NCBI GenBank assembly: GCA_012515365.1
Contig: JAAYYM010000191.1
Coordinates: forward strand, 1 to 7,560
Direction: 5' to 3'
DNA from: Clostridia bacterium
GTDB lineage: Bacteria > Bacillota_A > Clostridia > Lachnospirales > Lachnospiraceae
Length of the DNA stretch: 7,560 nucleotides
A program made the position numbers and the translations under genes. The notes below the pieces were generated by a model that ran no database searches, was not told where the DNA came from, and worked only from the letters and a program-made list of their open reading frames with translations. Below, in pieces: positions 1,995 through 7,409 of the stretch. Every line of letters starts with the position of its first letter. Position 1 is the stretch's first letter.

Positions 1995-2265
1995 AGATTA
2001 TGATAAGCGCAGTAGAAGATTGTTTTCTTTAAGAGAGAGGGAGTCACCGGCTGAGAGCTTCCTTAAGTTCAGACAATCATTCGAATTTCCCACCGGAGCA
2101 GTTTCCTTGAAATGAATTTCTTTCACAATAAGAGTTCGCAGTAAAGGAAAACGTCACTGTACGTTACACAGACAGAGTGCCTGTATGCCTTCATAGGTCA
2201 ACAGGAATTTGGGTGGTACCGCGAGCTGATTAGTTTCGTCCCTTTTATGGGATGGAGCTTTTTTT
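1995..2265 (+). promoter_or_regulatory. T-box riboswitch, probably tRNA-Phe responsive
   Basis: The canonical T-box GGGTGGTACCGCG is at 2211-2223. It reads UGGU at 2214-2217, which pairs with an uncharged tRNA 3' end carrying A73. The antiterminator pairs GGG (2211-2213) with CCC (2240-2242) and GCG (2221-2223) with CGT (2237-2239), around the 7-nt bulge. Stem I is visible. AGTA (2011-2014) faces GAA (2083-2085) as the loop-E motif of the specifier loop. The helix above it pairs 2015-2017 with 2080-2082 and 2019-2023 with 2073-2077. The upper part contains AGAGAG and GGGAG/CTTCC (2039-2043/2058-2062) around a CTGAGAG motif. Directly after GAA comes TTTC: reading from either 2086 or 2087 gives a Phe codon (UUU or UUC). 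The nucleotide after the specifier is C rather than the usual purine, and CCC just before ACC would be a less likely Pro reading. Stem III is near 2180-2205. Confidence 0.93.
2232..2265 (+). terminator. T-box intrinsic terminator
   Basis: An 11-bp helix pairs 2232-2242 with 2249-2259 (loop TTTTAT, a few G-U pairs) and ends in seven T at 2259-2265. Its left arm includes CGTCCC (2237-2242), the same bases needed for the antiterminator. The two folds are therefore mutually exclusive, as a T-box requires. Confidence 0.9.
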
Positions 2266-2269
2266 ATTA

Positions 2270-2288
2270 TCATAAGGATTTCTTATGA
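2270..2288 (+). other. Small hairpin between T-box terminator and iorA
   Basis: TCATAAG (2270-2276) and CTTATGA (2282-2288) are perfect 7-bp arms around a 5-nt loop. There is no T-run, so it is not a terminator. It would form only in read-through transcripts and could protect or position the mRNA 5' of the iorA ribosome site. No function can be assigned. Confidence 0.4.
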
Positions 2289-2343
2289 GATGCCTATTTT
2301 ATCAATCGAACTATGAAACGTTGAATCAGAAGGAGAAAATCAA

Positions 2344-4095
2344 ATGAGTGATCAGAAACAAAAAGTCGTAATGTTAGGAAATGAAGCCATTGCAAGAGGC
2401 GCCTATGAAGCAGGAGTAAAGGTATCCGCTGCTTATCCGGGTACACCAAGTACAGAAATCAGCGAAAACCTTGTACAATATAAGGACAGTTTGTACTGTG
2501 AATGGTCTCCAAATGAAAAGGTGGCCATGGAAGTAGCAATCGGTGCTTCTATCAGCGGTGTCCGTTCTATGGCATCTATGAAGCATGTGGGTGTTAATGT
2601 GGCAGCAGATCCTTTATATACCAATGCATATATGGGCGTTGGCGGTGGACTTGTAATGGTCGCAGCTGATGATCCGGGATTATATAGCTCACAGAATGAG
2701 CAGGATACCAGAATGGTGGCAAGAGCAGCACAGGTTCCTGTTATAGAGCCATCTGACTCTCAGGAAGCAAAAGATTTTATGAAATATGCATTTGAACTGA
2801 GTGAAAAATATGACACACCAGTCATTTTGAGAACAACAACAAGACTTGCACATTCTCAGGGAATGGTTGAGCTGTGTGAGCGTGAAGATATTGCAGATAA
2901 GCCATATGAAAGAAATCCAGTCAAAAACGTTATGATGCCTGCAAATGCAGTAAAGCGTCATTTGGTAGTGGAGGCTAGAAATAAACAGCTTGAGGAAGAT
3001 GGATGTACGTTTCCGATTAACCGTATCGAAATGAATGATACAAAGATCGGTATCATTACAAGCGGTATCCCTTATCAGTACGTGAAAGAAGCCATCCCGA
3101 GTGCCTCCGTATTAAAGCTTGGTATCGTGAATCCGCTTCCTAGAAAACTGATCGAAGATTTTGCGAAGAAAGTAGATACACTTTATATCGTAGAAGAGCT
3201 TGATCCATTGATTGAAACACAGGTTAAATCTTGGGGAATCAAGGCAATCGGTAAAGAAATTCTGACTGTGCAGGGTGAATACAGTGCCAATATGCTAAGA
3301 CGTGCAATCCTTCAAATAGAAGTGAATACAGAGGCACCGGCACAAATCCCTAACAGACCTCCAATTCTTTGTCCGGGTTGTCCACATAGAAGTGTATATT
3401 CTGTGTTAAATAAACTTAAAATCCATGCAGCAGGTGATATCGGATGTTATACACTCGGAGCGGTGCCACCGCTTAGTGTAGTTGATACGTGCGTACGTAT
3501 GGGTGCCAGCATTTCCACACTTCATGGTATGGAGAAGGCAAAGGGAAAAGATTATATTAAAAACTGGGTAGCCGTAATCGGTGATTCCACATTTATGCAT
3601 ACAGGTGTTAATTCTCTGATCAACATGGTTTACAATCAGGGCACCGGAACTGTTATGATCCTTGATAATTCTACAACAGGAATGACAGGGCATCAGGATC
3701 ACGCAGCAACAGGAACAACGCTGCAAGGAGATCCGACCTATGCAATCAATATTATGAAACTTTGTGAATCAATCGGTATCAAACATGTTATAGAGGTCAA
3801 TGCATTTGACACTACAGCACTTGAAAAGATTGTAAAAGAGGAAACAGCAAGAGATGAAGTGTCAGTGATCATTACAAAGTCTCCATGTGTATTGCTGAAT
3901 AAAACTCCGATTACGAAAAAGTGTGTGGCAGATCCTGCAAAATGTAAGAAATGCGGCATGTGTATGAAACCGGGATGCCCTGCACTTACAAAAAATGCAG
4001 ACGGTACGGTATCTGTTAACGATACAATGTGTAACGGTTGCGGACTTTGTAAGAGCTTATGTAAGTTTGGCGCAATCGAGGATGTTGCAATATAG
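2344..4095 (+). CDS. iorA: Indolepyruvate ferredoxin oxidoreductase, alpha subunit
   Basis: Catalytic subunit of the thiamine-diphosphate enzyme that interconverts aryl-pyruvates (indolepyruvate, phenylpyruvate, hydroxyphenylpyruvate) with arylacetyl-CoA, CO2 and reduced ferredoxin. At 583 residues it is close to the family's usual length. The N-terminal pyrimidine-binding domain has AYPGTPSTE (about 30-38) and the NEK glutamate E58 expected to activate the cofactor. A middle domain follows to about 330. CPGCPH (343-348) opens the pyrophosphate-binding domain, with GDS at 413-415 and LDNSTTGMTGHQDH after it. A C-terminal two-cluster ferredoxin domain holds C534, C537, C540, C545 and C563, C566, C569, C573. 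The first motif has the four-residue gap before CP known from IorA, and the last cysteine is followed by K rather than P. AGGAG at 2331-2335 sits 8 bases before the ATG. It is the first gene after the T-box and forms a complex with the next gene product. The pathway direction is inferred from the leader. Confidence 0.96.
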   Translation: MSDQKQKVVMLGNEAIARGAYEAGVKVSAAYPGTPSTEISENLVQYKDSLYCEWSPNEKVAMEVAIGASISGVRSMASMKHVGVNVAADPLYTNAYMGVGGGLVMVAADDPGLYSSQNEQDTRMVARAAQVPVIEPSDSQEAKDFMKYAFELSEKYDTPVILRTTTRLAHSQGMVELCEREDIADKPYERNPVKNVMMPANAVKRHLVVEARNKQLEEDGCTFPINRIEMNDTKIGIITSGIPYQYVKEAIPSASVLKLGIVNPLPRKLIEDFAKKVDTLYIVEELDPLIETQVKSWGIKAIGKEILTVQGEYSANMLRRAILQIEVNTEAPAQIPNRPPILCPGCPHRSVYSVLNKLKIHAAGDIGCYTLGAVPPLSVVDTCVRMGASISTLHGMEKAKGKDYIKNWVAVIGDSTFMHTGVNSLINMVYNQGTGTVMILDNSTTGMTGHQDHAATGTTLQGDPTYAINIMKLCESIGIKHVIEVNAFDTTALEKIVKEETARDEVSVIITKSPCVLLNKTPITKKCVADPAKCKKCGMCMKPGCPALTKNADGTVSVNDTMCNGCGLCKSLCKFGAIEDVAI

Positions 4096-4136
4096 ATAGA
4101 ACTGATCAAAGTTATCAATTAAATGGAGGATTCGTC

Positions 4137-4709
4137 ATGGAAACGAAAAATATAATGATTGTTGGTGTAGGTGGACAGGGAACATTACTTACGAGCCGTA
4201 TTTTAGGCGGTATTACTATAGATGCAGGTTATGATGTGAAGCTTTCTGAGGTACATGGAATGGCCCAGAGAGGTGGCAGTGTCGTAACGTTTGTCAGATA
4301 TGGGGAACAGGTAGCAGAGCCTATCGTAGAAGAGGGTCAGGCAGATGTTCTCATCGCATTTGAGCAGCTTGAAGCGCTGCGATATGCACATTTTTTGAAA
4401 CCGGATGGAGTCATCATCGCAAATGACCAGCGAATTGACCCTATGCCCGTGGTCATCGGAGCAGCAGAATATCCGGATCATATATTAGAAGATCTTTCAA
4501 AAAAATACAAGGTGATCACCGTAGATGCTATGAGTGAAGCAAAGAAGCTTGGTAATTCCAGAGTCTTTAATGTAATTGTATTAGGCATCGCTGCAAGGCA
4601 TATGGATTTTTCTAAGGAAGACTGGATGAAGGTAATCGAAAAGACAGTCAAACCAAAAACAATTGAGATAAATAAACGAGCATTTGAGGTAGGTTTTGAG
4701 GAATTATAA
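4137..4709 (+). CDS. iorB: Indolepyruvate ferredoxin oxidoreductase, beta subunit
   Basis: Gamma/beta-type subunit of 2-oxoacid:ferredoxin oxidoreductases, partner of IorA in the cytoplasm. The 190-residue length is normal for stand-alone IorB. The glycine-rich GVGGQG (10-15) near the N-terminus and EVHGMAQRGGSV (38-49) are the family signatures. The rest is the expected alpha/beta domain, with ADVLIAFEQLEALR and RVFNVIVLG segments. GGAGG at 4125-4129 lies 7 bases before the ATG. It follows iorA after 41 bases with no promoter or terminator between them, so the two should be translated from one message. There are no iron-sulfur cysteine motifs, as expected; the clusters are in IorA. Confidence 0.95.
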   Translation: METKNIMIVGVGGQGTLLTSRILGGITIDAGYDVKLSEVHGMAQRGGSVVTFVRYGEQVAEPIVEEGQADVLIAFEQLEALRYAHFLKPDGVIIANDQRIDPMPVVIGAAEYPDHILEDLSKKYKVITVDAMSEAKKLGNSRVFNVIVLGIAARHMDFSKEDWMKVIEKTVKPKTIEINKRAFEVGFEEL

Positions 4710-4757
4710 CTTGAAATGTTCGCGCAATAGGATGATAATGAAAGAGAGGAAACTGCT

Positions 4758-6056
4758 ATGATATGGAATGAAGCAAGAGAATGCATGAGCAGAGATGAAA
4801 TGCAGCATTTACAGAGCGCAAGACTAGTGAAGTTAGTCGACCGCGTTTATCATAATGTAGAATTCTACCGGAAGAAAATGCAGGCACTTGGCTTGGAACC
4901 CGGAGATATACATGGAATAGAAGATTTAAATAAGCTTCCCTACACAACGAAGCTTGACTTAAGAGATAATTACCCATTTGGATTATTTGCAGTACCACAG
5001 TCAGAGGTGGTACGTGTCCATGCATCATCAGGTACAACAGGCAAAGCAACTGTTGTTGGATATACCAGACGTGACATCGAGATCTGGAGTGAATGTGTTG
5101 CCAGAGCGATGTCTCAGGCGGGCATTACAAAGAATGACATCATCCAGGTCGCATATGGCTACGGGTTATTCACTGGAGGACTTGGCGCACATTATGGTGC
5201 AGAGAAGCTTGGTGCAACTGTTGTTCCGATGTCTACCGGAAATACAAAGAAATTGACGACAATGATGCAGGATTTTGGTGCAACAGCAATCGCATGTACG
5301 CCGTCCTATCTGTTACATATTGCTGAAACACTTGAGGAATCAGGCGATATCAAACATATCAAATTAAAAGCAGCCATTTGTGGCGCAGAGCCATGGACAG
5401 AAAATATGCGTCTTCAGATCGAAAAACGTCTGAATATTAAAGCGTATGATATTTATGGATTGTCAGAAGTCATGGGACCAGGTGTTGCATGTGACTGTGA
5501 ACATCATAATGGTCTGCATGTTTATGAGGATCATTTCCTTCCTGAAATCATCAATCCTGACACATTAGAGCCTGTAGCGCAGGGGGAGACAGGAGAGCTT
5601 GTATTTACGACACTGACAAAAGAGGCTTTGCCGTTGCTTCGTTACCGTACCAAAGATCTGACAAGCATCGACTATTCAACATGTGAGTGTGGACGTACAC
5701 TTCCGAGAATCTCCAGATTTAAGGGACGTAGTGATGATATGCTGATTATCCGTGGCGTTAACGTATTCCCTTCACAGGTGGAAGCAGCGCTTCTTGAAGT
5801 GAGTGAATCAACACCGTACTATCTGATGATCGTAGATCGTGTTAACCATCAGGATACGTTGGAAATCTGGGTAGAAGTCAATGAGAAATTCTTCTCAGAT
5901 GATATGCGTGCACTGGATGCTTTAAATAAGAAAATTGCAAATACGATTAAAATGGCATTGGGACTTGCTGTCAAAGTGAAATTGGTTGAGCCGAAGACCA
6001 TTGAGAGAAGTGAAGGCAAGGCAAAACGTGTAATCGATAAACGTGTCTTAGTGTAA
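4758..6056 (+). CDS. paaK: Phenylacetate-CoA ligase (arylacetate-CoA ligase)
   Basis: Adenylate-forming ligase that makes phenylacetyl-CoA, or a related arylacetyl-CoA, from the acid, ATP and CoA. At 432 residues it is full length for PaaK. Visible motifs are the nucleotide loop SSGTTGK (90-96), YGLSE (233-237), LLRYRTKDL, the hinge region [21 protein letters not shown] and SEGKAKR near the C-terminus, with K421 as the expected adenylation lysine. Four cysteines in two CxC pairs (C245/C247 and C309/C311), with histidines at 249-250 and 254, could bind zinc; this is inference. AGAGG at 4745-4749 precedes the ATG by 8 bases. Its place between iorB and the ACT gene links it to the same metabolites: it can supply arylacetyl-CoA to IorAB for reductive carboxylation. 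In the opposite sense, PaaK-type ligases can act with IorAB in ATP-yielding amino-acid fermentation. The exact aryl group cannot be told from sequence. Confidence 0.93.
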
Positions 6057-6069
6057 AGGAGGGGTCTAT

Positions 6070-6486
6070 ATGTCAGTAAAACAAGTATCAGTCTTTATGG
6101 AGAACCGAGAGGGCAGGCTGTCAAAAGTAATGAAGACACTTGCAGACGAGCAGATCAATGTGGCATCACTCAGCATGGCTGAGACAGAAGACTATGGTGT
6201 ACTGCGTCTGATCGTTTCTAAACCGGAACGTGCCTTGGAGGTTCTGAAGGAACATGAAATATCAGCAAAACTGACGAATGTCGTAGCAGTTAAGATTTCC
6301 AATGAAATCGGATCATTTAATCAACTGCTCAAGCCGCTTGAAAATTTAAATATTGAATACCTGTATGTACTCTCAACAAAGAGCTATGTATCAATGATCC
6401 TTAAGATTGCAGACGTCGTAACAGCAGAAAAACAGCTGACTGACGCCGGATATGAGCTGCTTAGTGAAGAAGAGGCTTACAAATAA
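6070..6486 (+). CDS. Tandem ACT-domain protein (amino-acid-binding regulator)
   Basis: A 138-residue protein made of two ACT domains and nothing else: about residues 4-70, opening VSVFMENREGRLSKV, and about 72-135, opening VKISNEIGSFNQLLKPL. ACT domains bind amino acids at domain or dimer interfaces. Stand-alone double-ACT proteins of this size often sit beside PaaK/IOR genes in anaerobes, and their role is mostly unproven. The very strong AAAGGAGG ribosome site (6055-6062) overlaps the paaK stop codon, and the gap is only 13 bases, so translation is probably coupled to paaK. A plausible job is sensing phenylalanine or another aromatic amino acid and modulating PaaK or IorAB. It has no DNA-binding or catalytic domain. 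Confidence 0.88.
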   Translation: MSVKQVSVFMENREGRLSKVMKTLADEQINVASLSMAETEDYGVLRLIVSKPERALEVLKEHEISAKLTNVVAVKISNEIGSFNQLLKPLENLNIEYLYVLSTKSYVSMILKIADVVTAEKQLTDAGYELLSEEEAYK

Positions 6487-6546: not shown

Positions 6547-7227
6547 ATGGTTATTACAGAGCGTTTCGCTGGAGAAACGGCGCGTGAATACGCATTCCGT
6601 ATGTTAAAAGATAATATTGTATCCTTAGAGTTAAAACCCGGAAGCAGCATCAGCGAAAACGAGTTGTCAAAAGAATTAGGGGTAAGCAGAACTCCAATCA
6701 GGGAAGCAATCATTGACTTAAACAAAGCTATGATCGTCGAAATCTATCCACAGCGGGGAAGCTACATTTCTTTAGTGGATCCGCAAATGGTAGAGGAGTC
6801 CAGATTCTTAAGAAAGGTACTCGATACCGCGGTTATAGAGCTTGCCTGCAAACTGGCAACGAAAGAGGATATCCTGAAACTTGAAGAGAATGTTAAACTA
6901 CAGGAATTCTATCTTCAAAATATTGTAGCAGACAAAATCCTACAGCTTGATAATGAATTTCATAAAATGATATTTTCAATAGCCAAAAAAGAAAGCATCT
7001 ATACCATGAAAAGTACAATGATGATCCACTATGACCGTGTACGTACCATGACGATGGTCGCTGTTAAAGATATGAAGATCGTCAAGGATCATCGCATGAT
7101 GTTAGAAGCCATCCGCGACAACGACCCGGAAACAGCCAAACAGCTGGTCGAAAAACATCTAGGCCGATATGATGTAGACGAAGGTCAGATCCGCAAGCAA
7201 TACCCCGAATACTTTGTATTTGAATAA
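6547..7227 (+). CDS. GntR-family transcriptional regulator, FadR/FCD subfamily
   Basis: A 226-residue DNA-binding regulator. The N-terminal winged helix-turn-helix covers about residues 10-75, with LSKELGVSRTPIREA (40-54) as the recognition segment typical of GntR. The all-helical C-terminal FCD domain (about 85-215) keeps the usual metal/ligand set D135, H139, H182 and H204, so it probably binds a metal and a small carboxylate. Family ligands are organic or fatty acids, so an arylacetate or aryl-pyruvate is a reasonable guess here. AGGTGG (6534-6539) is 8 bases before the ATG. It follows the ACT gene by 60 bases without a clear promoter, though that gap holds two 8-bp palindromes (ATCATGAT 6501-6508, GTATATAC 6520-6527) that could be an operator. 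A terminator follows, so it is probably the last gene of the operon and may control it or the palindrome region downstream. Confidence 0.92.
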   Translation: MVITERFAGETAREYAFRMLKDNIVSLELKPGSSISENELSKELGVSRTPIREAIIDLNKAMIVEIYPQRGSYISLVDPQMVEESRFLRKVLDTAVIELACKLATKEDILKLEENVKLQEFYLQNIVADKILQLDNEFHKMIFSIAKKESIYTMKSTMMIHYDRVRTMTMVAVKDMKIVKDHRMMLEAIRDNDPETAKQLVEKHLGRYDVDEGQIRKQYPEYFVFE

Positions 7228-7311: not shown

Positions 7312-7338
7312 ATGGTATAATGTCAACGACATTATACC
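7312..7338 (+). repeat. Palindromic repeat, copy 1
   Basis: Arms GGTATAATGTC (7314-7324) and GACATTATACC (7328-7338) are perfect 11-bp inverted repeats around AAC. The whole 27-nt unit recurs exactly at 7381-7407. It embeds an extended -10 (TGGTATAAT, 7313-7321) on the + strand, but no good -35 lies upstream. It could be an operator over a promoter, or one end of a small palindromic element. Confidence 0.85.
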
Positions 7339-7339
7339 G

Positions 7340-7383
7340 GCGCATGTATTAGTGCGCATAAATGATCATGTGTGAAACACATG
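7340..7383 (+). other. Two small hairpins between the palindrome copies
   Basis: GCGCA (7340-7344) pairs with TGCGC (7353-7357). CATGTGT (7367-7373) pairs perfectly with ACACATG (7377-7383) around GAA, and this second hairpin overlaps the left arm of palindrome copy 2. Transcribed or single-stranded, the block 7312-7409 would be four consecutive stem-loops. TGATCA (7363-7368) lies at the start of the second hairpin. Confidence 0.6.
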
Positions 7384-7390
7384 GTATAAT
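7362..7390 (+). promoter_or_regulatory. Possible extended -10 promoter for the right-edge gene
   Basis: TGGTATAAT (7382-7390) is an extended -10 with a perfect TATAAT at 7385-7390. At 17-base spacing the -35 is only ATGATC (7362-7367), 3/6 of consensus, which an extended -10 can tolerate. The box lies inside palindrome copy 2, so any protein binding the palindrome would block it. Transcription would start near 7397. Confidence 0.45.
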
Positions 7391-7409
7391 GTCAACGACA
7401 TTATACCAT
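7381..7409 (+). repeat. Palindromic repeat, copy 2
   Basis: Same 27-nt unit as at 7312, here extended to 13-bp perfect arms (7381-7393 and 7397-7409) around AAC. Copy-to-copy distance is 69 bp, about 6.5 helical turns. Because of the longer arm, the extended -10 TGGTATAAT reads on both strands of this copy. It lies just before the possible gene start at 7419. Confidence 0.88.

Follow-up and report, generated by a model that had tools for sequence, protein, structure and literature searches.

A phenylalanine-type T-box leader upstream of indolepyruvate ferredoxin oxidoreductase genes and its bearing on phenylalanine synthesis from phenylacetate

Does a T-box located in front of genes for indolepyruvate ferredoxin oxidoreductase (IOR) and a PaaK-family ligase indicate that phenylalanine is made from phenylacetate, as proposed in the preliminary description of this locus? 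Phenylacetate is the precursor of phenylacetylglutamine, and this link gives the question of gut bacteria making or using it a wider interest. A sensor of Phe-tRNA on such a cluster would be independent regulatory evidence for biosynthesis. According to passages of PMC13285125, opposite directions have been argued in the literature for IOR and arylacetate-CoA ligase clusters of gut anaerobes.

The window, meaning the whole analysed stretch of 7,560 nt, carries all features described below on its plus strand. An incomplete reading frame (3-725), for which the Pfam and NCBIfam searches gave no match, and a gene for a GGDEF protein (745-1890) precede the leader. It is followed by iorA, encoding the IOR alpha subunit (2344-4095), iorB for the beta subunit (4137-4709), and genes for a PaaK-family AMP-forming arylacetate-CoA ligase (4758-6056), an ACT domain pair protein (6070-6486; PF19571, 77.6 bits) and a GntR/FCD regulator (6547-7227; PF00392 and PF07729), the last of which is possibly the final gene of the operon. 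IorA passes the curated cut-off of TIGR03336 (698.7 vs 650.9 bits) and IorB that of NF005325 (269.4 vs 230 bits); the 22 proteins closest to the window IorA in a protein search are 82-85% identical to it. The ligase matches PF14535 and misses the cut-off of the PaaK equivalog TIGR02155 (567.3 vs 646.3 bits), and it is therefore named only as a PaaK-family ligase; phenylacetate-CoA ligases are its best solved relatives. No aminotransferase gene was found within the 7,560-nt window. Downstream of the GntR gene, two identical copies of a 27-nt near-palindrome (7312-7338 and 7381-7407) are spaced 69 nt apart.

Anatomy of the leader

The T-box noticed in front of iorAB and the ligase gene is matched by RF00230 at 2001-2246, with 82.1 bits and an E value of 2.4e-18 in a 501-base search at a permissive threshold. 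The score falls below the RF00230 gathering score of 93 bits, which is why a search of the whole window at the default Rfam threshold listed no T-box. Both the low score and the late start of the match are probably caused by a 28-nt hairpin inserted at 1983-2010.

A candidate sigma-70-type promoter, TTGACA-17-TATAAT, is located at 1909-1937, identified by consensus match only (12/12 positions), and the same arrangement is found upstream of the related iorA leader in genome G001 (locus L001). The 5' side of stem I begins with the K-turn strand at 1970-1982, a motif also present in L001. Its helix strand GGUG (1979-1982) forms 4/4 pairs with CACC, and this pairing is seen in the minimum free energy fold of 1966-2105. 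The inserted hairpin (1983-2010; -4.8 kcal/mol, z -2.06) separates the K-turn helix from the S-turn and faces the specifier; L001 has 3 nt at this position. Hairpin-like inserts, about 19-28 nt in length, were observed at this 5' side of the specifier loop in the Phe T-boxes L085, L102 and L117 as well. The leader start, set in the preliminary description at 1995, has to be corrected, as this base lies inside the hairpin, while the K-turn strand and the promoter are upstream of it.

The 5' strand of the S-turn (loop E), AGUA at 2011-2014, was read directly and aligns with the AGUA of the Rfam consensus. Upper stem I (2015-2082) includes the AGAGAG and CACCGGCUG motifs and is closed by a helix between 2015-2022 and 2074-2082. 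This helix has 8/8 pairs in the window and in L001, as in 17 of 29 leaders in total, counts biased to pairing because the position of a floating bulge was chosen for most pairing. Its third pair above the S-turn is A-U in the window and U-A in L001. The S-turn is completed by GAA at 2083-2085, followed by the specifier codon UUC (Phe) at 2087-2089, in the register common to pheS leaders, and by the 3' strand of the lower helix and K-turn (CACC-GGA-GCA, 2091-2100). The Rfam alignment places the antiterminator, with the T-box bulge UGGUACC, at 2211-2242; the letters UGGU were checked at 2214-2217. Both GAA and UGGU are thus situated where they had been reported. An intrinsic terminator with 11 pairs and a T run folds at 2232-2259 and overlaps the antiterminator at 2235-2242.

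Judged on these sequence features, the T-box in the window is real, combining the RF00230 match, the K-turn, S-turn and specifier of stem I, and a UGGU antiterminator that competes with a terminator. We consider it very improbable that the leader has decayed and lost its switching, with the 28-nt insert and the C after the codon spoiling tRNA binding. Such decay would agree with the RF00230 score under the Rfam cut-off and with a minimum free energy of 1966-2105 that is not better than that of shuffles (z 0.12). However, the K-turn strands are paired in that fold, as are the inserted hairpin and the helix above the S-turn, and no element is missing from the series of K-turn, S-turn, codon, UGGU bulge, antiterminator and terminator. 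Furthermore, the pheS leaders L085, L102 and L117 carry inserts in the same place, and C is the usual base after the codon among leaders of this kind.

Specifier and kinship with pheST leaders

Used as a DNA query, the window leader found matches in 145 of 299 genomes of the family of G001. Among the best 30 loci, 28 are positioned before pheS on the same strand, one is the iorA leader of G001, and one is at a contig end. For comparison of specifiers, 32 leaders were taken (window, L001, L085 and L089-L117). The core was readable in 31 of them, all with UGGU (31/31), and the full codon motif in 26, comprising 23 pheS leaders, the two iorA leaders (window and L001) and one at a contig end. UUC occupies one and the same register in 26/26. 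The strings are GAA-U-UUC-C-CACC-GGAGC in the window, GAA-G-UUC-C-CGCC-GGAGC in the L001 iorA leader, and GAC-A-UUC-A-CACC-GGAGC in the pheS leader of G001.

The earlier suggestion that the codon specifies Phe in either register holds for the amino acid, on the grounds of homology to pheST leaders, and not for the register: the alternative UUU would read GUU in L001, and it was rejected. The codons CCC (Pro) and UCC (Ser) were rejected in the same way, the register being set by the pheS leaders and L001, and all three are unlikely as the window specifier. The letters UUUCCC in the window do permit other registers, yet the probability of a Pro or Ser specifier appears negligible once the register is fixed by these relatives. 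Ser tRNAs usually have G73, which is incompatible with UGGU. The comparison of leaders did not bear out a non-aromatic specifier such as CCC, the refuting outcome named in the preliminary description.

A purine after the specifier has been described as conserved in T-boxes, and the window, with C at 2090, lacks it. This base is C in 18, A in 5 and U in 3 of the 26 readable leaders, and the purine criterion does not discriminate within the subgroup of pheS-like leaders. In TBDB, 99% of Phe specifiers are UUC, and the codon is taken as positions 2-4 counted back from the 3' end of the specifier bulge; by this rule the window codon is UUC. No tRNA-Phe gene was detected in the 44 loci scanned. Homology to pheST leaders and the shared codon register make Phe specificity of the window T-box well supported.

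The pheST leaders in the family of G001, themselves RF00230 T-boxes, have in common with the window leader its sequence, the UUC register, the UGGU bulge and the stem I motifs. Unlike them, the window leader precedes iorAB and an arylacetate ligase gene and carries the 28-nt hairpin in the specifier loop. The L001 iorA leader scores 120.7 bits with RF00230 and has no inserted hairpin; it aligns with the window over 2011-2267 at 75%. The spacer between leader and iorA is about 80 nt long in the window vs 400-430 nt in L001, where segment 5560-6000 contains remnants of reading frames with stops, possibly a decayed gene.

In a tree of 29 leaders, the window, L001, L105 and L112 compose one clade (support 0.92), with support of only 0.115 for the window and L001 as sisters. 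A single origin of the two iorA leaders is likely, and the pheST leader was most likely copied to iorAB and the ligase gene in one small lineage, the source being a duplication that would have remained confined to it. Genome G001 retains a separate pheST leader in addition to the one before iorA. Its seven T-boxes (E <= 0.001) precede iorA and genes for a TrpX-like binding protein (201 bits, below cut-off), a TrpB-like protein and pheS (both above cut-offs), valS, a transporter and ileS. The last three were named by eye from translations, and the transporter had no NCBIfam match at 1e-30. Another pheST-like T-box was noted on the minus strand of L152 (G172:C18; core at 2881), with GAAUUUCA at the specifier. 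The gene immediately following it is not pheS and encodes a D-ribitol-5-phosphate cytidylyltransferase (2729-2025; 383 bits against a cut-off of 166).

T-boxes in the vicinity of related iorA genes

To follow the suggested survey of T-boxes upstream of iorA homologues, we inspected 80 related genome loci, which we take to belong mostly to Lachnospiraceae or to genera placed there. In one of the 80 related loci, a Phe-type T-box stands immediately in front of iorA; three of the 80 have less than 210 nt of upstream sequence. The proposal of the Phe T-box as a general feature of iorA clusters was rejected on this count. The gene block itself is common: iorB is present in 79 loci, a downstream PaaK-family ligase in 54, a downstream ACT protein in 57, and all three in 51, although some of the 80 loci end before downstream genes could show. 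A tblastn match to the GntR/FCD regulator of the window was obtained in 0/80 related loci. An IlvE-type aminotransferase gene is located directly upstream of iorA in 6/80, the one in L003 being above the NCBIfam cut-off.

A regular expression for the T-box core missed four of the seven T-boxes in G001, and the surveys were repeated with a covariance model that covers the 3' domain of the T-box and was constructed from 13 leaders including the window and L001. On held-out leaders, the model found 10/10 pheS leaders and L083 (30.3 bits), while L087 was recovered only at E 0.25, so that divergent non-Phe T-boxes may escape the survey. The same model disclosed no other convincing T-box in two additional sets, 29 loci from the family (of which at least 5 repeat some of the 80) and 30 from the class, the next best hit having E 0.78. 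Among the 60 loci searched in this round, the iorA leader of G001 was the only match found. Comparison of contigs by eye likewise indicated G001 as the only one with a leader match near iorA, among the matches listed. Retention of the leader before iorA is thus observed in two lineages, which is a small sample.

The covariance model also revealed T-boxes overlooked by the regular expression in 3/80 loci, all of them before leuA (L066 3769-4015, L074 3803-4049 and L077 3768-4014; Rfam 125-131 bits). By our reading of the string GAA-CUC-C, their specifier is Leu. The 2-isopropylmalate synthase of L066 scores 798.9 bits against a cut-off of 455. In all three loci, leuA ends about 150 nt before iorA, and the T-box is on the same strand; iorA of L066 may have its own promoter (9/12 match). 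These loci resemble the window in having a T-box upstream of a related iorAB, and they differ from it in the CUC specifier, in leuA placed in between, and in the absence of any PaaK-family or ACT match beside iorAB in L066, L074 and L077. The leuA-iorAB arrangement possibly ties carboxylation of isobutyrate or isovalerate to leucine synthesis. IorAB under or near amino-acid-starvation switches on two occasions favours biosynthesis, and not one fixed substrate; from the neighbouring leuA (3/80) and ilvE (6/80), related IorAB may serve other 2-oxoacids.

Direction and substrate of the proposed pathway

It is probable, in our view, that a tRNA-Phe T-box controls iorAB and the PaaK-family ligase gene, and that their products salvage phenylacetate to phenylalanine; the direction, the substrate and the response to starvation are derived here from the logic of regulation, gene content and precedent. 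In the proposed mechanism, uncharged tRNA-Phe would bind the leader at two places, through its GAA anticodon to UUC at 2087-2089 and through its ACCA end to UGGU at 2214-2217. The tRNA-bound leader would form the antiterminator, and the downstream genes would be transcribed; with charged Phe-tRNA, the terminator at 2232-2259 would form and transcription would end. Since a T-box acts on uncharged tRNA, expression of the operon is expected to increase when Phe is short. Control by this T-box probably extends to the ACT and GntR genes. The ligase would convert phenylacetate into phenylacetyl-CoA, ferredoxin-driven reductive carboxylation by IorAB would yield phenylpyruvate, and an aminotransferase encoded outside the window would produce phenylalanine. 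Switching on by uncharged tRNA-Phe together with an AMP-forming ligase fits such reductive synthesis. The window supplies the ligase and IOR of this set, and in related loci the IlvE-type genes upstream of iorA, together with leuA and its Leu-type T-box, represent biosynthetic surroundings.

For the opposite, oxidative direction (Phe to phenylacetate), the T-box would have to be a pheST leader captured by chance that only sets the level of expression. We regard this as quite improbable. Work cited in passages of PMC13285125 links the B. thetaiotaomicron IOR to phenylalanine breakdown and reports Bacteroides IOR in the conversion of Phe to phenylacetate, and nearly all relatives were seen without a Phe T-box. 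On the other hand, induction by Phe starvation would be counterproductive for breakdown, two lineages retain the leader with intact helices, and the ligase is of the AMP-forming type, said in the same passages to favour acyl-CoA synthesis.

It appears unlikely, though less so than oxidation, that the T-box senses Phe while the enzymes take broader acids (hydroxyphenylacetate, indoleacetate, branched), phenylalanine being one product only. This would accommodate the ligase score under the PaaK cut-off, the leuA genes with Leu-type T-boxes before iorAB (3/80), the IlvE-type genes (6/80), and the activity on phenylpyruvate, hydroxyphenylpyruvate and indolepyruvate that passages of PMC13285125 describe for IORs. 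The leuA leaders shift weight to this broader range and away from phenylacetate salvage. Against it, Phe is the only amino acid with a tRNA sensor found on the window operon, the leuA loci are without a PaaK-family gene near iorAB, and iorA may have a separate promoter there (L066, 9/12).

Phenylacetate salvage stands as the preferred reading of the locus, with several observations counted against it: the rarity of the Phe T-box before iorA, the long spacer with reading-frame remnants in L001, the leuA and ilvE neighbours pointing to branched-chain acids, the lack of an aminotransferase gene in the window, the ligase below cut-off, the prephenate dehydratase gene of G001, and the phenylalanine breakdown linked to IOR in B. 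thetaiotaomicron. With respect to the preliminary description, its regulatory half is strengthened by pheST homology and by the second lineage, while direction and substrate keep their conditional standing, and the route would not be the sole source of phenylalanine in G001. A prephenate dehydratase gene adjoins that of DAHP synthase in this genome, and none of the seven T-boxes (E <= 0.001) is on its contig; a prephenate dehydratase match was obtained in 24 of 25 genomes tested (one a fragment). The idea of a lineage obliged to salvage Phe was rejected on account of this gene in G001, and salvage would be supplementary, used under shortage.

Precedents for the enzymatic steps exist in several anaerobes. 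In Bacteroides, IOR is encoded beside an AMP-forming arylacetate-CoA ligase, the same pairing as in the window, and the authors of PMC13285125 propose a biosynthetic role because such a ligase favours acyl-CoA synthesis. This system differs in belonging to another phylum, and the term T-box has 0 occurrences in the available text of that paper. For Methanococcus, two papers state that aromatic amino acids are made from aryl acids, a conversion for which they name indolepyruvate oxidoreductase. The aryl-acid route of Methanococcus maripaludis has a reductive, CO2-fixing step of the IOR type like that proposed for the window, and it differs in being archaeal and in having no T-box in the accessible part of its description. 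Synthesis of phenylalanine from phenylacetate, the reaction proposed for the window, is stated for rumen cultures of anaerobes in a sentence citing Allison 1965; that sentence and the title of the cited work name no genes or regulation. The RNA itself is an ordinary pheST-type T-box, and its placement before IOR genes is undescribed within the literature searched. No paper joining T-box and IOR genes was found there, passages of PMC5171806 and PMC9045289 included.

T-box anatomy, the UUC register, pheST kinship and presence in two lineages are properties of the sequences themselves, and they allow a broader proposal, to which we give somewhat less than even confidence. A duplicated pheST T-box would have been recruited so that tRNA-Phe charging gates conversion of arylacetate to Phe, and IorAB of Lachnospiraceae would be reductive 2-oxoacid synthases whose regulation follows the amino acid produced (Phe in the window, Leu in leuA-iorAB). 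If this were true, many gut and rumen species would consume phenylacetate and related acids, and not release them.

In addition, a second ior cluster was observed in G001 (L157, G001:C27, 1301-6262, minus strand). It comprises genes for threonine ammonia-lyase (above cut-off), iorA, iorB and a PaaK-like ligase, the last two recognized by eye, and its IorA is 43% identical to that of the window.
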